A stretch of DNA of 64,000 bases from Granulicella sp. L46 (lineage in GTDB: Bacteria > Acidobacteriota > Terriglobia > Terriglobales > Acidobacteriaceae): NCBI RefSeq assembly GCF_009765785.1, contig NZ_LMUT01000003.1, positions 545,570-609,569 of the forward strand, read 5' to 3'. Numbering within the stretch: position 1 is the stretch's first letter; each line of letters begins with the position of its first letter. The position numbers were made by a program, and so were the translations under genes. Positions 2,190 through 9,276 of this stretch are shown here, piece by piece. Below the pieces are notes generated by a model. The model worked only from the letters and a program-made list of their open reading frames with translations, ran no database searches and was not told where the DNA came from.

Positions 2190-2312
2190 GCCCTTGCACT
2201 GACCTTGCCTTGCCTTTGCCCTTGCCCTTGCCCTTGCCTTTGCATTTGCCTTTGCCTTTGCATTTGCCTTTGCCCTTGCCCTTGCCTTTGCCTTTGCCTT
2301 TCTTTGGACAAT
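2190..2312. repeat. Degenerate hexamer tract (CTTGCC/TTTGCC)n
   Basis: About 120 bp of imperfect 6-bp units, CTTGCC, TTTGCC and TTTGCA, lie between mreC and recG. The tract is open in several frames because it has no stops, which gives spurious reading frames (for example Pro-Leu repeats). Similar short tracts flank palindromic repeats at 5755-5830, 27120-27260 and 32560-32790, so the tract and the palindromes look like parts of one composite intergenic element. No promoter was recognised in it. Confidence 0.8.
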
Positions 2313-2326
2313 TTCTAAAAGAAATT

Positions 2327-2459
2327 GTCATTCCGAGCGGAGCGAGCGAACCTGCTGTCTCCCGTTCTTGCCCTTCCCCTCCTTTCTGTCATTCCCTCTG
2401 GGAATCTGCCTTTGTTTCTGCCCTTGCCTTTCTTTCTGTCATTCCCTCTGGGAATCTGC
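2327..2459. repeat. Cluster of three short interspersed repeats
   Basis: A GTCATTCCGAGCGGAGCGAG-type unit lies at 2327-2356. It is followed by two identical copies of a 27-bp unit that begins TTTCTGTCATTCCCTCTGGG (2383-2409 and 2433-2459), separated by CTTGCC-like sequence. The same 27-bp unit recurs with one or two changes at 5769-5795 and 32743-32769. Short inverted arms (ATTCCC/GGGAAT) suggest a REP-like element. Together with the hexamer tract these fill the 514-bp gap between mreC and recG. Confidence 0.75.
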
Positions 2460-2560
2460 TGTTCGCTCGCTGCCCCCTCGCTGTGCCTTCTCCACGACCA
2501 CCACCACCACCCGCCCACCCAACCTGTTTCGCAGAACCTCCGCTGCTACCATCAAACCCG

Positions 2561-5500
2561 ATGCCGCTCCAGCTCTCCACGCCCGTAAAATTCGTCAAGC
2601 GCATCGGCGACCGCATCGCCGCCGGCCTAGCCGATCGAGGCATCCTCACCATCGAAGACCTCCTCTACCACCTCCCCTTCCGCTACGAAGACCGTCTCCA
2701 CCCCAAGCCCCTCAGCCTCTACAACCCCGGCGACATGGCCTCCCTCATCGGCGAAGTCCGCGGCACCACCCTCCTCCGCACCCGCTCCGGCCCCATCTTC
2801 GAAATGACCGTAGGCATCACCCCGCCCGACCCCAACAGCGAAGCCGCCATGCAAGGCCTCCTCGCGCCTCCACCCTCGTTCGCCCCGGGCTCCTCCAACT
2901 CACCACAAATCGGCCAATCCCCTATCGCCTCACCACAAATCGGCCAATCCCCTATCGCCTCACCACAAATCGGGTACCCCGAGGCTTCAGCCTCGGGTCT
3001 CATATCCAGCAATAAAAATGGTGGGGCTTTAGCCCCGGGGCGGAGCCCCATCCTCGAAACCGTAAAGTGCATGTGGTTCCACGGCACCTATCTAAAAGAC
3101 AAATTCCACGCCGGCCAAAAAATAGCCCTCTACGGCAAGTTAGAAGGAAGCCGCAGCGGTAACGCCCTCGGCGCCATCCCCGGCACCACCCGCTTCAAAA
3201 TGATCCAGCCCACCTTCGAAATCCTGCCCGACGACAACGCCACCGGAGAAGACGCCGAATTCATCCTCCTCGAAATGGGCCGCATCGTCCCCGTCTACGA
3301 ATCCCTGGGCGGCAAAACTCCCTGGGGCGCCAAACTAACCTCCCGCTGGACCCGCCGAATCCTCTGGACCATCTTCAAAGACCTGGCCGAATCCGAACCT
3401 CTCTCCCAAACCTCGTCATCTGCACCTGCACACGCCACCCAAACCTCGTCATCTAGACCCGCACCCGCTACCCAAACTTCGTCATCTCGACCGGAGGCCG
3501 CAGGCCGTAGTGGAGAGACCCCTGCATTTCGTTCGCATCACCCAAACTCTGTCATCCTGAGCGCAGCGCACAGCGCGCAGCCGAAGGACCCGCCAGCCCG
3601 CCAGCCTCAGCAGACAAGCCCGCCCCTTTCCACCACGCGAAGCCCCTCACCGTCCGCGCAGGACGAAACCCTCCCCACGTCCCTTCGCAACCGCCTAGCC
3701 TTCCCCACCCGCATGGAAGCCCTTCGCGACCTCCACTTTCCCCCCGCCGGCACCTCCATGACCGACCTCATGTCCGCCCGCACCCCCGCGCACCGCCGCC
3801 TCATCTTCGAAGAGTTCTTCTACCTCGAACTAGGCCTCGAACTAAAACGCCGCAAGCTTCACAACCGCCAGGGCACAGCCTTCGTCACCAACGATCAAGT
3901 CCGCGAAGCCCTAAAACAAATCCTCCCCTTCAAACCCACCGCCGCCCAAAAACGAGTTCTAGGCGAAATCGTCCACGACATGCGCCGCACCCAGCCCATG
4001 CGCCGCCTCCTGCAAGGAGACGTAGGCTCCGGCAAGACCATCGTCGCCTTTCAAGCAGCATTAATAGCGATCGAAAACGGCTACCAGGTAGCTCTCATGG
4101 CGCCAACAGAAATCCTGGCAACGCAACACTACCTCTCCGCGCGCAAACTGCTCAGCGAAAAAATCTCACCGCGCACAAAGCGCCCCTACCGCATCGGCCT
4201 TCTCACCGGCTCGCTCGACGACAAGACAAAGCGCGACACCCGCGCCCACATCTTCCGCGGCGAAATCGATCTAGCCATCGGCACCCACGCCCTCGTAGAA
4301 GAAAAAGTAGACTTCGCCAACCTCGGCCTCGTCATCGTCGACGAGCAACACCGCTTCGGCGTCCAACAGCGCTTCCAACTAATGCGCAAACCCAACACTG
4401 GCACCGCCACCACGCCCCTCCCAGAATCGGGTGCCCCAGGTCCCGCTCCTGGGACCCGGGTTTCCAGAGAATCCTTCGCAACCACCACTGCAAACACCAC
4501 CACGCAAAGCCCCTCGCCGTCCGCGCAGGACTCTGTCATCCTGAGCGAAGCGCGCAGCGCGCAGCCGAAGGACCTGCCAGCCAGCCCGCACCAGCAAGCA
4601 AGCTCGCCCCTTTCCGCCACCCAAACCCCCGCACACGACACGTACAGCGAACCCGACGTATTAGTAATGACGGCAACCCCCATCCCTCGCACCTTGGCCC
4701 TCACGCTCTACGGCGACCTCGAAGCCTCCATCATCGACGAGCTCCCCCCGGGCCGCACCCCCATCCAAACCCGCCGCATGCCCGAAGAGCGCTCCGCCGA
4801 AGTCTGGGACTTCATCCGCAAGCAAGTAGCCGCCGGCCGCCAGGCCTACATCGTCTACCCCATCATCGAAGGCGCCACCGACGACCAACCCGAATTAGAC
4901 TTCGCCAAGTTCGACGACTCCGAACCCTTAGCGCCAACGGCGCGGCCCCATACCAGCGAGGGGCAACGCTCCTCGAAATTGTCCCTCAAGAATCCCTTGA
5001 GGGCTGAAGGCCCGACCCAATCCGGATCGCCTAAACCCTCTAAATCCAAACGCGCGACCACCAAACTCCGCTCCGCCACCGACATGCACCACGACCTTCA
5101 ATCCGGCCCCCTCGCCGGCCTCAAACTCGGCCTACTCCACGGCCGCATGTCCGCAGACGACAAAGAAGTCACCATGGCCCGCTTCAAGCGTGGCGAGCTA
5201 GACGTCCTCGTCTCCACCACCGTCATCGAAGTAGGCGTCGACGTCCCCAACGCCACCGTCATGGTCATCGAACACGCCGACCGCTTCGGCCTCGCGCAAC
5301 TCCACCAACTCCGCGGACGAGTAGGCCGAGGCGCCGCTAAAAGCTTCTGCATCCTCATCACCGCCGCGACGGTAACCCCCGAAGCCGACCAACGCCTCAA
5401 CGCCATGGTCCAAACCCAGGATGGTTTCGCGTTAGCCGAACTAGACCTCCAACAACGAGGCCCCGGAGAATTCTTCGGCACCAAGCAAGCCGGCCTCCCC

Positions 5501-5674
5501 GAATTCCGAGTAGCCAATCTAGCCCGCGACCGAGACCTCCTCGAACTAGCCCGCCAGGAAGCCGCCCACTTCGCAGAACAAGAAGACCCCACCATGCCCC
5601 GCCCCGAAATCGACGCAGTCTGGTCCCGCCTCAAGCAACAATGGCAACGCCGCTACGGCCTAGTCGAAGCCTAA
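2561..5674 (+). CDS. recG: ATP-dependent DNA helicase RecG, enlarged by in-frame inserts
   Basis: RecG remodels stalled replication forks and branched recombination intermediates. The N-terminal wedge domain begins VKRIGDRIAAGLADRGILT. Helicase motifs follow in order: Walker A GDVGSGKT (about residue 486), DEQHRFG (about 594), TATPIPRT (about 702), LLHGRM (about 857) and HQLRGRVGRG. All key residues are present. At 1037 residues it is ~300 longer than typical RecG (~690-760). The excess sits in four Ser/Pro/Ala/Thr-rich blocks between conserved elements, annotated separately, at least three of which contain copies of intergenic repeats. ATG 2561 (MPLQLSTPVKFVKRIG) was chosen; the open frame extends upstream only through hexamer repeats. 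The gene is probably functional because motifs and frame are intact. Confidence 0.92.
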   Translation: MPLQLSTPVKFVKRIGDRIAAGLADRGILTIEDLLYHLPFRYEDRLHPKPLSLYNPGDMASLIGEVRGTTLLRTRSGPIFEMTVGITPPDPNSEAAMQGLLAPPPSFAPGSSNSPQIGQSPIASPQIGQSPIASPQIGYPEASASGLISSNKNGGALAPGRSPILETVKCMWFHGTYLKDKFHAGQKIALYGKLEGSRSGNALGAIPGTTRFKMIQPTFEILPDDNATGEDAEFILLEMGRIVPVYESLGGKTPWGAKLTSRWTRRILWTIFKDLAESEPLSQTSSSAPAHATQTSSSRPAPATQTSSSRPEAAGRSGETPAFRSHHPNSVILSAAHSAQPKDPPARQPQQTSPPLSTTRSPSPSAQDETLPTSLRNRLAFPTRMEALRDLHFPPAGTSMTDLMSARTPAHRRLIFEEFFYLELGLELKRRKLHNRQGTAFVTNDQVREALKQILPFKPTAAQKRVLGEIVHDMRRTQPMRRLLQGDVGSGKTIVAFQAALIAIENGYQVALMAPTEILATQHYLSARKLLSEKISPRTKRPYRIGLLTGSLDDKTKRDTRAHIFRGEIDLAIGTHALVEEKVDFANLGLVIVDEQHRFGVQQRFQLMRKPNTGTATTPLPESGAPGPAPGTRVSRESFATTTANTTTQSPSPSAQDSVILSEARSAQPKDLPASPHQQASSPLSATQTPAHDTYSEPDVLVMTATPIPRTLALTLYGDLEASIIDELPPGRTPIQTRRMPEERSAEVWDFIRKQVAAGRQAYIVYPIIEGATDDQPELDFAKFDDSEPLAPTARPHTSEGQRSSKLSLKNPLRAEGPTQSGSPKPSKSKRATTKLRSATDMHHDLQSGPLAGLKLGLLHGRMSADDKEVTMARFKRGELDVLVSTTVIEVGVDVPNATVMVIEHADRFGLAQLHQLRGRVGRGAAKSFCILITAATVTPEADQRLNAMVQTQDGFALAELDLQQRGPGEFFGTKQAGLPEFRVANLARDRDLLELARQEAAHFAEQEDPTMPRPEIDAVWSRLKQQWQRRYGLVEA
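2884..3052 (+). repeat. recG insert 1: 30-bp tandem repeat plus palindromic element
   Basis: An in-frame block inside the RecG wedge/OB region, between the strand ending FEMTVGI and the conserved VKCMWFHGTYLKDKF. It holds 2.5 copies of a 30-bp unit (2900-2929, 2930-2959, 2960-2973; peptide SPQIGQSPIA). Next comes an element starting GGGTACCCCGAGGCTTCAG with hairpin arms CCCGAGG/CCTCGGG and GGGGCT/AGCCCC (2972-3050). The same two-hairpin element occurs outside the gene at 5689-5749. All 169 bp are read through without a stop. Confidence 0.8.
3397..3672 (+). repeat. recG insert 2: three repeat families in frame
   Basis: An in-frame block of about 90 codons between the wedge domain (IFKDLAESEPL) and the linker before the helicase core (RNRLAFPTRMEAL). 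It has three imperfect ~33-bp units containing CAAACCTCGTCATCT (from 3408), then a block GTCATCTCGACCGGAGGCC (3481-3531). A GTCATCCTGAGCGCAGCG element follows (3551-3590), then a CACCACGCGAAGCCCCTC...GTCCGCGCAGGAC unit (3631-3664). The last two families also occur in intergenic DNA in this window. Confidence 0.8.
4393..4650 (+). repeat. recG insert 3: palindromic repeats in frame
   Basis: An in-frame block of about 85 codons between the DEQH motif segment (RFQLMRKP) and the next helicase motif (DVLVMTATPIPRT). It contains a stem-loop unit at 4429-4463 (GGGTGCCCCAGGTCCC...GGGACCCGGGTTT) with the same layout as the intergenic unit at 51840-51873. A CACCACGC...GCGCAGGAC unit (4498-4531) and a GTCATCCTGAGCGAAGCGCG element (4534-4573) follow. 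In E. coli RecG, as far as I recall it, this position is a short linker. Confidence 0.82.
4916..5090 (+). repeat. recG insert 4: low-complexity linker
   Basis: An in-frame block of about 58 codons in the second RecA-like domain, between YIVYPIIEG...FAKFDD and MHHDLQSGPLAGLKLGLLHG. It is rich in Ser, Pro, Lys and Arg, with short inverted arms (AGCGCCAACGGCGC; CCCTTGAGGGCTGAAGGCC). RecG proteins normally have a variable linker here, so part of the length could be native. I found no second copy of this block in the window, so repeat origin is less certain than for inserts 1-3. Confidence 0.5.
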
Positions 5675-8148: not shown

Positions 8149-8177
8149 TTGACATCGATAACGCGCCGCCGTACCTT
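8149..8177 (+). promoter_or_regulatory. Candidate sigma-70-type promoter for the leader/peroxiredoxin unit
   Basis: TTGACA (8149-8154), a 17-bp spacer and TACCTT (8172-8177) lie in the divergent region between the PhzF-like gene and the peroxiredoxin gene. A transcript from about 8184 would carry the leader ORF, the terminator and the peroxiredoxin gene. The -35 is a perfect match; the -10 matches TATAAT at only three of six positions. Confidence 0.45.
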
Positions 8178-8262
8178 ATCAACAACCGCAAGGGAAGCGA
8201 AACTGCTTCTACGCTGGCGCTAGGCGCCCGCGGCGGTACTAAGTTTAGAAGCACTCAACTCA

Positions 8263-8343
8263 ATGACACTGACCGTCTCCAACTCGATGCTCTGCTGCTG
8301 TGGTTGCTGCTGTTGCTGCGGCCCCACACGGGTGAGCGGATGA
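8263..8343 (+). CDS. Polycysteine leader peptide (26 aa)
   Basis: A 26-codon frame contains CTC followed by CCCGCCCCC at codons 11-19: eight Cys codons (six TGC, two TGT) interrupted by one Gly. It ends at TGA 8341-8343, 43 nt before a strong terminator hairpin and 147 nt before the 1-Cys peroxiredoxin start. Start is ATG 8263, or ATG 8287 for an 18-residue version; no strong Shine-Dalgarno precedes either. In mycobacteria, short ORFs with runs of Cys codons are established cysteine-responsive attenuators. This frame has that architecture, so I infer ribosomes stalling on Cys codons when Cys-tRNA is scarce. It could be a chance reading of CTG-rich DNA, but the density of Cys codons, the stop and the terminator placement argue against that. 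Confidence 0.6.
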   Translation: MTLTVSNSMLCCCGCCCCCGPTRVSG

Positions 8344-8386
8344 GCGAATCGAGACGATAGCAAAGCGTCAAGAAACGAACATCAAG

Positions 8387-8424
8387 ACCCACCCAAGGCT
8401 CAGCCGGGTGGGTTTTCTGCTTTT
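8387..8424 (+). terminator. Intrinsic terminator between leader peptide and peroxiredoxin (candidate attenuator)
   Basis: Arms ACCCACCC (8387-8394) and GGGTGGGT (8406-8413), with an inner GGC/GCC pair, are followed by TTTTCTGCTTTT. It lies upstream of the peroxiredoxin start (8491) and downstream of the Cys-rich ORF, on the coding strand. Short alternative pairings are possible: GGGTG at 8330-8334 with CACCC at 8390-8394, and CCCAC at 8323-8327 with GTGGG at 8408-8412. Both involve the 3' part of the leader ORF, but at 5 bp each they are weak. Confidence 0.75.
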
Positions 8425-8490
8425 ACCGACATTCCCCAAAACTGCTCTTCAAGCAAAGCTCAAACTTTATTCAGAAGGACGGAAAACACG

Positions 8491-9147
8491 ATGTCACTCC
8501 GGATCAACGATATTGCTCCCGATTTCACCGCCGACACCACGCAGGGCACCATCCACTTCCATGAATGGATCGGCGACGGCTGGGCCGTTCTCTTCTCCCA
8601 CCCCAAGGACTTCACCCCGGTCTGCACCACCGAACTCGGCGCCGTGGCTGGCCTCGAACGCCAATTCGCGCAGCGCGGCGCGAAAGTTATCGGCCTCTCC
8701 GTCGACCCCGTCGACAGCCACAGCAAGTGGACCCAGGATATCGAAGACGTCGGCGGCCACAAGGTCAACTACCCGCTCATCGGCGACCCCACCCTTACCA
8801 TCGCGAAGCTCTACGACATGTTGCCCGCCGACGCCGGTGAGACCAGCGAAGGCCGCACTCCCGCCAACAACGCACCCGTTCGCACCGTCTTCGTCATTGG
8901 CCCCGACAAGCGCATCAAGCTCCAAATCGCTTACCCCATGACCACCGGCCGTAACTTCGACGAAGTCATCCGCGTGCTCGACTCCATCCAACTGACCGCG
9001 AAGCATAAAGTCGCAACGCCAGCCAACTGGAAGCAGGGTGAGGACGTCATCATCACCGGCGCCGTTTCCAACGAAGATGCCGACAAGATCTTCCCCGGCT
9101 ACAAAACCGTGAAGCCTTACCTGCGTACGACAGCGCAGCCGCAGTAG
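8491..9147 (+). CDS. 1-Cys peroxiredoxin (Prx6 type)
   Basis: A 218-residue thiol peroxidase that reduces H2O2 and organic hydroperoxides. The active-site segment HPKDFTPVCTTELG has the peroxidatic Cys45; no other Cys is present, so it is a 1-Cys enzyme needing an external thiol such as glutathione-like or thioredoxin-type donors. The long C-terminal half (NNAPVRTVFVIGPDKRIKL... TPANWKQGEDVII) is the dimerisation region of the Prx6 class. Shine-Dalgarno AGAAGGA precedes ATG by about 10 nt. Upstream are a leader peptide and terminator; tRNA-Cys starts 53 nt after the stop, on the same strand. Regulation by cysteine supply is inferred from that context. Confidence 0.93.
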   Translation: MSLRINDIAPDFTADTTQGTIHFHEWIGDGWAVLFSHPKDFTPVCTTELGAVAGLERQFAQRGAKVIGLSVDPVDSHSKWTQDIEDVGGHKVNYPLIGDPTLTIAKLYDMLPADAGETSEGRTPANNAPVRTVFVIGPDKRIKLQIAYPMTTGRNFDEVIRVLDSIQLTAKHKVATPANWKQGEDVIITGAVSNEDADKIFPGYKTVKPYLRTTAQPQ

Positions 9148-9161
9148 TTTCTTACAGAACC

Positions 9162-9194
9162 TTCTGCCGTGTATCGTCAACATGCGCGGCAGAA
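9162..9194 (+). repeat. Inverted repeat between peroxiredoxin and tRNA-Cys
   Basis: Eight-base arms TTCTGCCG (9162-9169) and CGGCAGAA (9187-9194) end six bases before the tRNA. No T-run follows, so it may be a processing or protection stem rather than a terminator. If it does not terminate, the tRNA is co-transcribed with the peroxiredoxin. Confidence 0.5.
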
Positions 9195-9200
9195 TCATGA

Positions 9201-9276
9201 GCACCGGTGGCGAAGTGGCTAACGCGCTGGTCTGCAAAACCAGTATTCGCGGGTTCAATTCCCGCCCGGTGCTCCA
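9201..9276 (+). tRNA. tRNA-Cys (anticodon GCA)
   Basis: A complete cloverleaf can be folded by eye: acceptor GCACCGG/CCGGTGC, anticodon stem CTGGT/ACCAG around CTGCAAA (anticodon GCA), T-stem GCGGG/CCCGC with loop TTCAATT, discriminator T and an encoded CCA. It follows the 1-Cys peroxiredoxin by 53 bp on the same strand. No clear promoter is seen between them, although the gap is long enough for one. About 220 bp of non-coding DNA then separates it from the efflux operon. Confidence 0.96.

Follow-up and report, generated by a model that had tools for sequence, protein, structure and literature searches.

As judged from the aligned sequences, a fixed order of elements surrounds the 1-Cys peroxiredoxin gene prx6 in this family: promoter, Cys-rich leader open reading frame (ORF), ORF-end motif complementary to the 5' arm of the terminator, terminator and prx6, to which a second tRNA-Cys gene is added in many species. 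The arrangement probably constitutes a ribosome-mediated transcription attenuator through which tRNA-Cys charging governs a prx6-tRNA-Cys operon (a probability of roughly three in four). With plentiful Cys-tRNA, the ribosome would reach the leader stop codon and cover the ORF-end motif, and the terminator would form; with scarce Cys-tRNA, due to cysteine shortage or an oxidized cysteine pool, the ribosome would stall within the Cys run, the ORF-end motif would capture the 5' arm of the terminator ahead of synthesis of the 3' arm, and RNA polymerase, the terminator being prevented, would continue through prx6 and the tRNA gene. The predicted outcome of read-through is more tRNA-Cys and more peroxiredoxin, and at prx6 loci without a tRNA-Cys gene the switch would have prx6 as its only target.

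The stretch of DNA that was analysed (the window; 64,000 nt) is located on contig C21 of genome G000, and the features of the locus are collected in Table 1. The promoter, the 26-codon ORF with eight Cys codons in nine positions and the peroxiredoxin start all lie where a first-pass annotation of the window had placed them, and the terminator it had reported after the leader ORF is present, with the hairpin and the T-rich stretch now delimited as in Table 1; absent from that annotation were the tRNA-Cys gene 3' of prx6 and the 5' structured element. The T-rich stretch 3' of the terminator hairpin is broken by CTGC. A generic scan of the window did not flag the promoter (the -10 having only 3/6) or the + strand terminator (which has an 11-nt loop), but flagged the same inverted repeat on the - strand. 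Upstream of prx6 lies a divergent PhzF gene and 3' of the tRNA-Cys an AcrB-type pump gene (both assigned by Pfam in the window), and the tRNA-Cys(GCA), which is the sole tRNA of the window according to ARAGORN, follows the prx6 stop at a distance of 53 nt. The nearest prx6 records are labelled Acidobacteriaceae or Acidobacteriales, one of them being from Terriglobus albidus (L036).

Table 1. Coordinates of features at the prx6 locus, in positions of the window.
Feature	Position	Strand	Basis
Sigma-70-type promoter TTGACA-17-TACCTT (TTGACA 8149-8154, TACCTT 8172-8177)	8149..8177	+	read directly
5' structured RNA element forming a three-way junction (ACCGC/GCGGT) with two hairpins; predicted mRNA 5' end	8185..8237	+	
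Leader ORF, 26 codons, ATG to TGA, encoding MTLTVSNSMLCCCGCCCCCGPTRVSG	8263..8343	+	
Cys run, 8/9 codons (codons 11-19)	8293..8319	+	
GGGTG at ORF end, putative antiterminator 5' strand, pairing with 8390-8394	8330..8334	+	predicted fold
Extra helix segments of the putative antiterminator	8339-8342/8380-8383 and 8353-8356/8366-8369	+	predicted fold
Intrinsic terminator hairpin AAGACCCACCC..GGGTGGGTTTT, then T-rich stretch up to 8424	8384..8416	+	
1-Cys peroxiredoxin (Prx6 type), AhpC-TSA and 1-cysPrx_C	8491..9147	+	Pfam
prx-tRNA intergenic hairpin, no T run following	9162..9194	+	predicted fold of 9145-9205, z -3.63
tRNA-Cys (GCA), second isodecoder, CCA encoded	9201..9276	+	ARAGORN, Rfam

Orthologues of prx6 were gathered from 61 genomes including G000, from 300 genomes of the family, at least 172 of which had a prx6 match at E ≤ 1e-80 (11 low-scoring rows being left out), and from a genome collection (80 loci); 100 further stretches were also taken. 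A lenient rule for the leader, which called for a short ORF in the right place with at least three Cys in nine codons near the ORF end, found a Cys-rich short ORF before prx6 at 120 of the 143 family loci, compared with 12/143 for the reverse complement, 4/143 for the prx6 coding start and 10/143 for a downstream stretch, such that 4-12 of 143 is the level at which the rule also fires on chance ORFs. Outside of the family set the rule fired on 12 of 89 loci, comprising Acidobacteria records (L032-L037 and L089) and five others. When the orthologous upstream regions were compared, a check that the first-pass annotation had proposed, the Cys run, the stop codon and the terminator recurred while other bases drifted, and on sequence grounds its interpretation as a Cys-codon attenuator appears supported.

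A run of five TGY codons is not rare, with 50 matches in G000, as would suit the reading that an open TGC repeat merely happens to precede an ordinary terminator; this reading is already contradicted by the conservation of the leader against the controls and by a lineage-specific switch from TGC to TGT codons in which Cys is kept (see below), and is scarcely credible. Because such runs are common on their own, it is the conservation that exceeds chance. Thirty of the 50 matches were examined as loci (12 contexts after the merging of overlaps), and none had the leader-terminator anatomy. Locus L282 has a 75-codon frame with a TTG start, in which the run lies 42 codons from the end and a hairpin follows the run, and L311 has a weak hairpin and no start codon.

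By the lenient rule, 79 of the 143 family loci have both the leader and a downstream tRNA-Cys, 41 have the leader without a tRNA-Cys and 23 have neither, with the leader lacking at none of the 79 tRNA-Cys loci. A leader and, by rule, a terminator-like hairpin were found at 113 of 233 loci (108 unique), two of which (L104 and L180) were dropped as chance, resulting in a set of 106 leaders for which a terminator-type hairpin was a condition of entry; five hairpins in the set were later judged to be mis-picked and not the conserved terminator, and were kept in the capture and equilibrium computations below. The best-scoring promoter starts with TTGAC in 104 of the 106 leaders, under a scoring that favours TTGAC and carries no shuffle control, and a strict-pattern promoter occupies the same place in 103. 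On a FastTree phylogeny of 173 Prx proteins, many forks of which are weak, loci with both leader and tRNA group together (10 changes vs 56.8 in shuffles). At least four genomes with a leader-bearing prx6 carry second prx6 copies that lack the leader (L164, L168, L184 and L191). At locus L009 of genome G021 the tRNA-Cys is kept, the leader is degenerate, though it still passed the lenient rule, and the conserved terminator is missing; this natural loss is a possible comparison case.

The leaders were divided into clade B, in which the leader ends with Gly plus TAG/TAA and no tRNA-Cys lies behind prx6, and clade A, comprising all others, with the size of clade B varying slightly with definition (23, 25 or 26 leaders). 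The number of Cys per leader ranges from three (the floor of the rule) to 11, in a variable pattern. Across the 106 leaders Cys frequency peaks at codons -13 to -8 from the stop (0.50-0.81), and a second peak (0.54 at codon -2) belongs to the ORF-tail motif. That GGGTG motif is retained even in L003 and L014, where it falls in a different reading frame. TGC predominates among adjacent Cys codons in clade A (267:122) and TGT in clade B (66:9), and such a switch between lineages with Cys retained is evidence against an explanation of the run at the RNA level. Among 46 neighbour pairs, changes in the region before the Cys run fall equally over the three codon positions (128/132/120), and the leader peptide appears to have no conserved sequence in this region. 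The Cys block changes less (59 of 255 codons changed, vs 241 of 435 before the run), and of the changed codons inside the run 16 are synonymous and 43 are not; over 101 overlapping pairs, 13 of the 137 changed codons in the run are synonymous and 124 are not. The small number of synonymous changes suggests that the presence of the run is kept, rather than single codons, and the individual Cys codons seem to be without clear purifying selection.

The variable pattern also bears on whether the nascent Cys-rich peptide, and not the tRNA, could be the sensor, with thiol oxidation or metal binding slowing the ribosome and so controlling the terminator. The controlled gene is a peroxidase, the peptide is thiol-rich and the RNA geometry would serve equally well, but the spacing of the Cys is not fixed, no residues are conserved before the run and the tRNA-Cys gene behind prx6 points to charging. 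Further, the Cys block is near the C terminus of the leader and would presumably be mostly within the exit tunnel while it is being read, which also counts against a peptide sensor, and this explanation is considered unlikely.

In the window, the 3'-incomplete transcript 8318-8400 is predicted to fold into an imperfect hairpin closed by GGGTG/CACCC (MFE -22.9 kcal/mol, z -2.59), by which part of the terminator 5' arm would be captured before the 3' arm is made. The alternative pairing of only about 5 bp had been named as the weak point in the first-pass annotation, a concern that is eased as GGGTG/CACCC closes a longer imperfect hairpin and the pairing reaches 7-9 bp in some relatives (L124, L142, L153 and L154). 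All capture values rest on the assumption that the ribosome covers 12 nt past the A-site codon. Stalling at the first Cys codon gives a mean 5'-arm capture of 0.69, compared with 0.44 with shuffled segments, and 94 of the 106 leaders are above their own shuffled mean. By stall codon, mean capture is 0.63-0.67 at codons -18 to -9, 0.50 at -8 and 0.18-0.19 from -5 to the stop. In this model the Cys codons are concentrated at positions from which a stalled ribosome would not reach the ORF-end motif, and a ribosome near the stop would cover the motif. For the window, capture is only 0.58 with the ribosome at the first Cys codon, falls to 0.18-0.38 (codons 12-14), returns to 0.58 (codons 15-18), and is 0.39 at codon 19 and at most 0.23 thereafter. 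At equilibrium with the whole hairpin made, the terminator reaches 0.95 in the window for both ribosome positions, and its mean over the 106 leaders is 0.76 with the ribosome stalled vs 0.89 with the ribosome at the stop. Since most leaders, the window included, favour the terminator at equilibrium, the predicted switch must be kinetic.

Compensatory changes in the antiterminator are only suggestive. The clade B antiterminator (GTGGGT/ACCCAC) is paired in 98% of cells and no pair is changed on both sides, a near invariance that leaves little room for compensatory change to show. Of 31 clade A tails, 27 were aligned, four of these after trimming. RNAalifold, applied to A2, returned the terminator plus a weak 5' helix and not the antiterminator. 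Divergent arms with matching tails occur in L124 (GCGGGTT/AACCCGC) and L154 (GGCGGGTGA/TCGCCCGCC). Over the whole set, own tails outperform swapped tails (11 of 500 swaps as good). Restricted to the 23 variant arms, own tails are better than permutation among the variants (0/1000 as good) and are no better than foreign consensus tails (162/400 as good, with own above the foreign mean in 11/23).

The linked tRNA gene is one of two tRNA-Cys genes in G000: there are 48 RF00005 matches, ARAGORN places a tRNA in 47 of the 48 loci and, of three Cys hits, two are one gene in overlapping loci. The prx-linked gene differs from a housekeeping tRNA-Cys at G000:C11:62853-62927, which rules out the idea that it is the sole tRNA-Cys of the genome. 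Within the genus, a prx-type tRNA (>100 bits) and a close prx6 (E below 1e-100) are present together in 19 of 28 genomes, and neither was found in the other nine, three of which are <70% complete and five of which have a distant peroxiredoxin (45-48% identity). Among 78 unique loci, no strict promoter match occurs between prx6 and the tRNA-Cys (0/78), the gap has a median of 54.5 nt and a terminator-like hairpin lies in the gap at only two loci, while 24 loci have a terminator-like hairpin within 110 nt 3' of the tRNA. With no strict promoter match and few terminator-like hairpins in the gap, one transcript is the simplest reading, and we infer that the tRNA-Cys is probably part of the regulated output. 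The competing possibility, in which the attenuator acts on prx6 only and the tRNA-Cys is an independently transcribed or constitutively fed neighbour, would accommodate the 41 of 143 loci where leaders have no tRNA-Cys behind prx6 and the housekeeping tRNA-Cys in 25 of the 28 genus genomes, which means that the second gene is not the sole source; the near absence of signals in the gap and the joint presence of prx6 and tRNA within the genus argue against it, and it is held to be doubtful, though the most plausible of the alternatives. With the tRNA-Cys included in the output, a tRNA gene would be controlled by its own charging, and Cys-tRNA stalls would open the second tRNA-Cys together with the peroxiredoxin, such that translation may act as a sensor of thiol oxidation within a cis feedback loop on the tRNA pool, a proposal for which the odds are about even.

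Some hairpin, by score, was found between prx6 and the tRNA at 67 of the 78 loci; at 46 of these 67 its end lies 4-8 nt short of the tRNA (counts made with no shuffle control). The strong hairpin of the window is followed by no T run, and hairpins of other sequence lie at a similar place in many relatives, perhaps as a processing or insulation signal. Separately, a same-strand selenocysteine tRNA (anticodon TCA) lies behind prx6 at 12 loci, none of which has a tRNA-Cys and some of which have the leader (L023, L169, L183, L190, L193, L202, L225, L229 and L231) and some do not (L078, L200 and L227); prx6 thus tends to precede a Cys or Sec tRNA gene.

Between the promoter and the leader, the segment covering the covarying 5' structured element (8178-8262) folds with z -2.35. 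Of 35 leaders inspected for this element, 27 were aligned and eight without a clear element were excluded; in the 27 selected leaders 97.5% of cells are paired and both sides have changed in 24 cells, vs 6.3 in shuffles. A model search recovered the element before prx6 in 15 of the 28 genus genomes and matched three of 80 further loci, the few matches there indicating that the element belongs to part of the family. No Rfam family matched the element, at E ≤ 5 in the window and at E ≤ 2 in seven relatives. It may protect the 5' end of the mRNA, regulate translation of the leader or bind a ligand.

Two models, R1 for the 5' element and R2 for the ORF end plus terminator, were also used to look beyond prx6. 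Of the 19 genus genomes that possess a close prx6, 18 give an R2 match at the prx6 locus, and none of the other nine does. Elsewhere, R2 has weak matches in G021 (5.0e-4, about 42 kb from its prx6) and G000 (0.0047), and R1 has one further weak match in G000 (E 0.0056). No wider Cys-leader regulon was found in G000 with R1 and R2 among the best 150 and 148 first-look candidates per genome, a restriction that may have hidden copies of differing sequence. No ORF with at least three Cys in nine codons is present within 600 nt upstream of the matches to cysS, to four cysK-like loci (four of the eight cysK-family matches being taken) or to two PAPS-reductase loci. As a side observation, a recG-like ORF (identified by eye; 2210-5674) possesses in-frame low-complexity inserts with SPQIGQSPIA repeats and VILSEARSAQPKDL-type stretches, and similar VILSEAKDP-type stretches occur elsewhere in the genome (loci L286 and L307) beside TGCTGT repeats.

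Classical attenuators of the trp and his type combine leader codons, a stop, an antiterminator and a terminator. Corresponding parts are present here, the antiterminator as a putative one, with Cys as the amino acid and with products that are a peroxidase and an isodecoder of the tRNA being sensed rather than biosynthetic enzymes. Among the literature matches listed, judged by title and the opening of the abstract, there was no Cys leader on a peroxiredoxin or in Acidobacteria and no tRNA gene under a leader-peptide attenuator.

Mycobacterial polycysteine leaderless short ORFs, reportedly the subject of Canestrari et al. in 2020, raise the prospect that attenuation at prx6 is translational and not transcriptional. 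The leader starts within 16 nt of the -10 in 58 of the 106 leaders and in 24 of 26 in clade B (near-leaderless), as leaderless short ORFs would, but a terminator-type hairpin and a T stretch follow the leaders (a condition of the set) and the ORF end complements the 5' arm of that hairpin, leaving translational control very improbable. The mycobacterial ORFs are described as responding to cysteine and acting on downstream translation (PMC9031893, PMC13236596, PMC9094748). The likeness to this description lies in a short ORF containing Cys-codon runs and in the leaderless appearance of clade B; the differences are the intrinsic terminator, the other genes, the other phylum and the leader of the window, which is not leaderless, its ATG being 85 nt from the -10 and thus not at the transcription start.

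The closest transcriptional counterpart, the uORFC-8-2 motif, is presented as a predicted Cys-codon transcription attenuator of cysS in Rhodobacterales, with a short ORF carrying tandem Cys codons, an intrinsic terminator and predicted read-through at low Cys-tRNA, all features that resemble the prx6 leader (PMC8632094). Compared by that description, the motif belongs to alphaproteobacteria and to cysS, with two Cys codons usually at positions 14-15 inside the first stem (PMC8632094), and the leaders here stand before prx6 and tRNA-Cys and not upstream of cysS. The statement in the first-pass annotation that no polycysteine attenuator was known on a peroxiredoxin or in this lineage agrees with the literature matches listed, but a Cys-codon attenuator as such had already been published for cysS. 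PBC-28-3 is likewise an RNA element preceding a peroxiredoxin gene, found upstream of ahpC-like genes with a long stem and a conserved loop with pyrimidine stretches that adjoins the start codon, and its section mentions no Cys ORF or terminator (PMC8632094). Cys-codon attenuators are already known on other genes; the matches listed included none on the prx6/tRNA-Cys target or in Acidobacteria. Leader-peptide attenuation is established for biosynthetic genes and has been predicted for a tRNA synthetase; if the proposed mechanism is true, the output of an attenuator would include an isodecoder of the tRNA that it senses, closing a loop on tRNA supply, and peroxide defence would be linked to the charging of cysteine tRNA.
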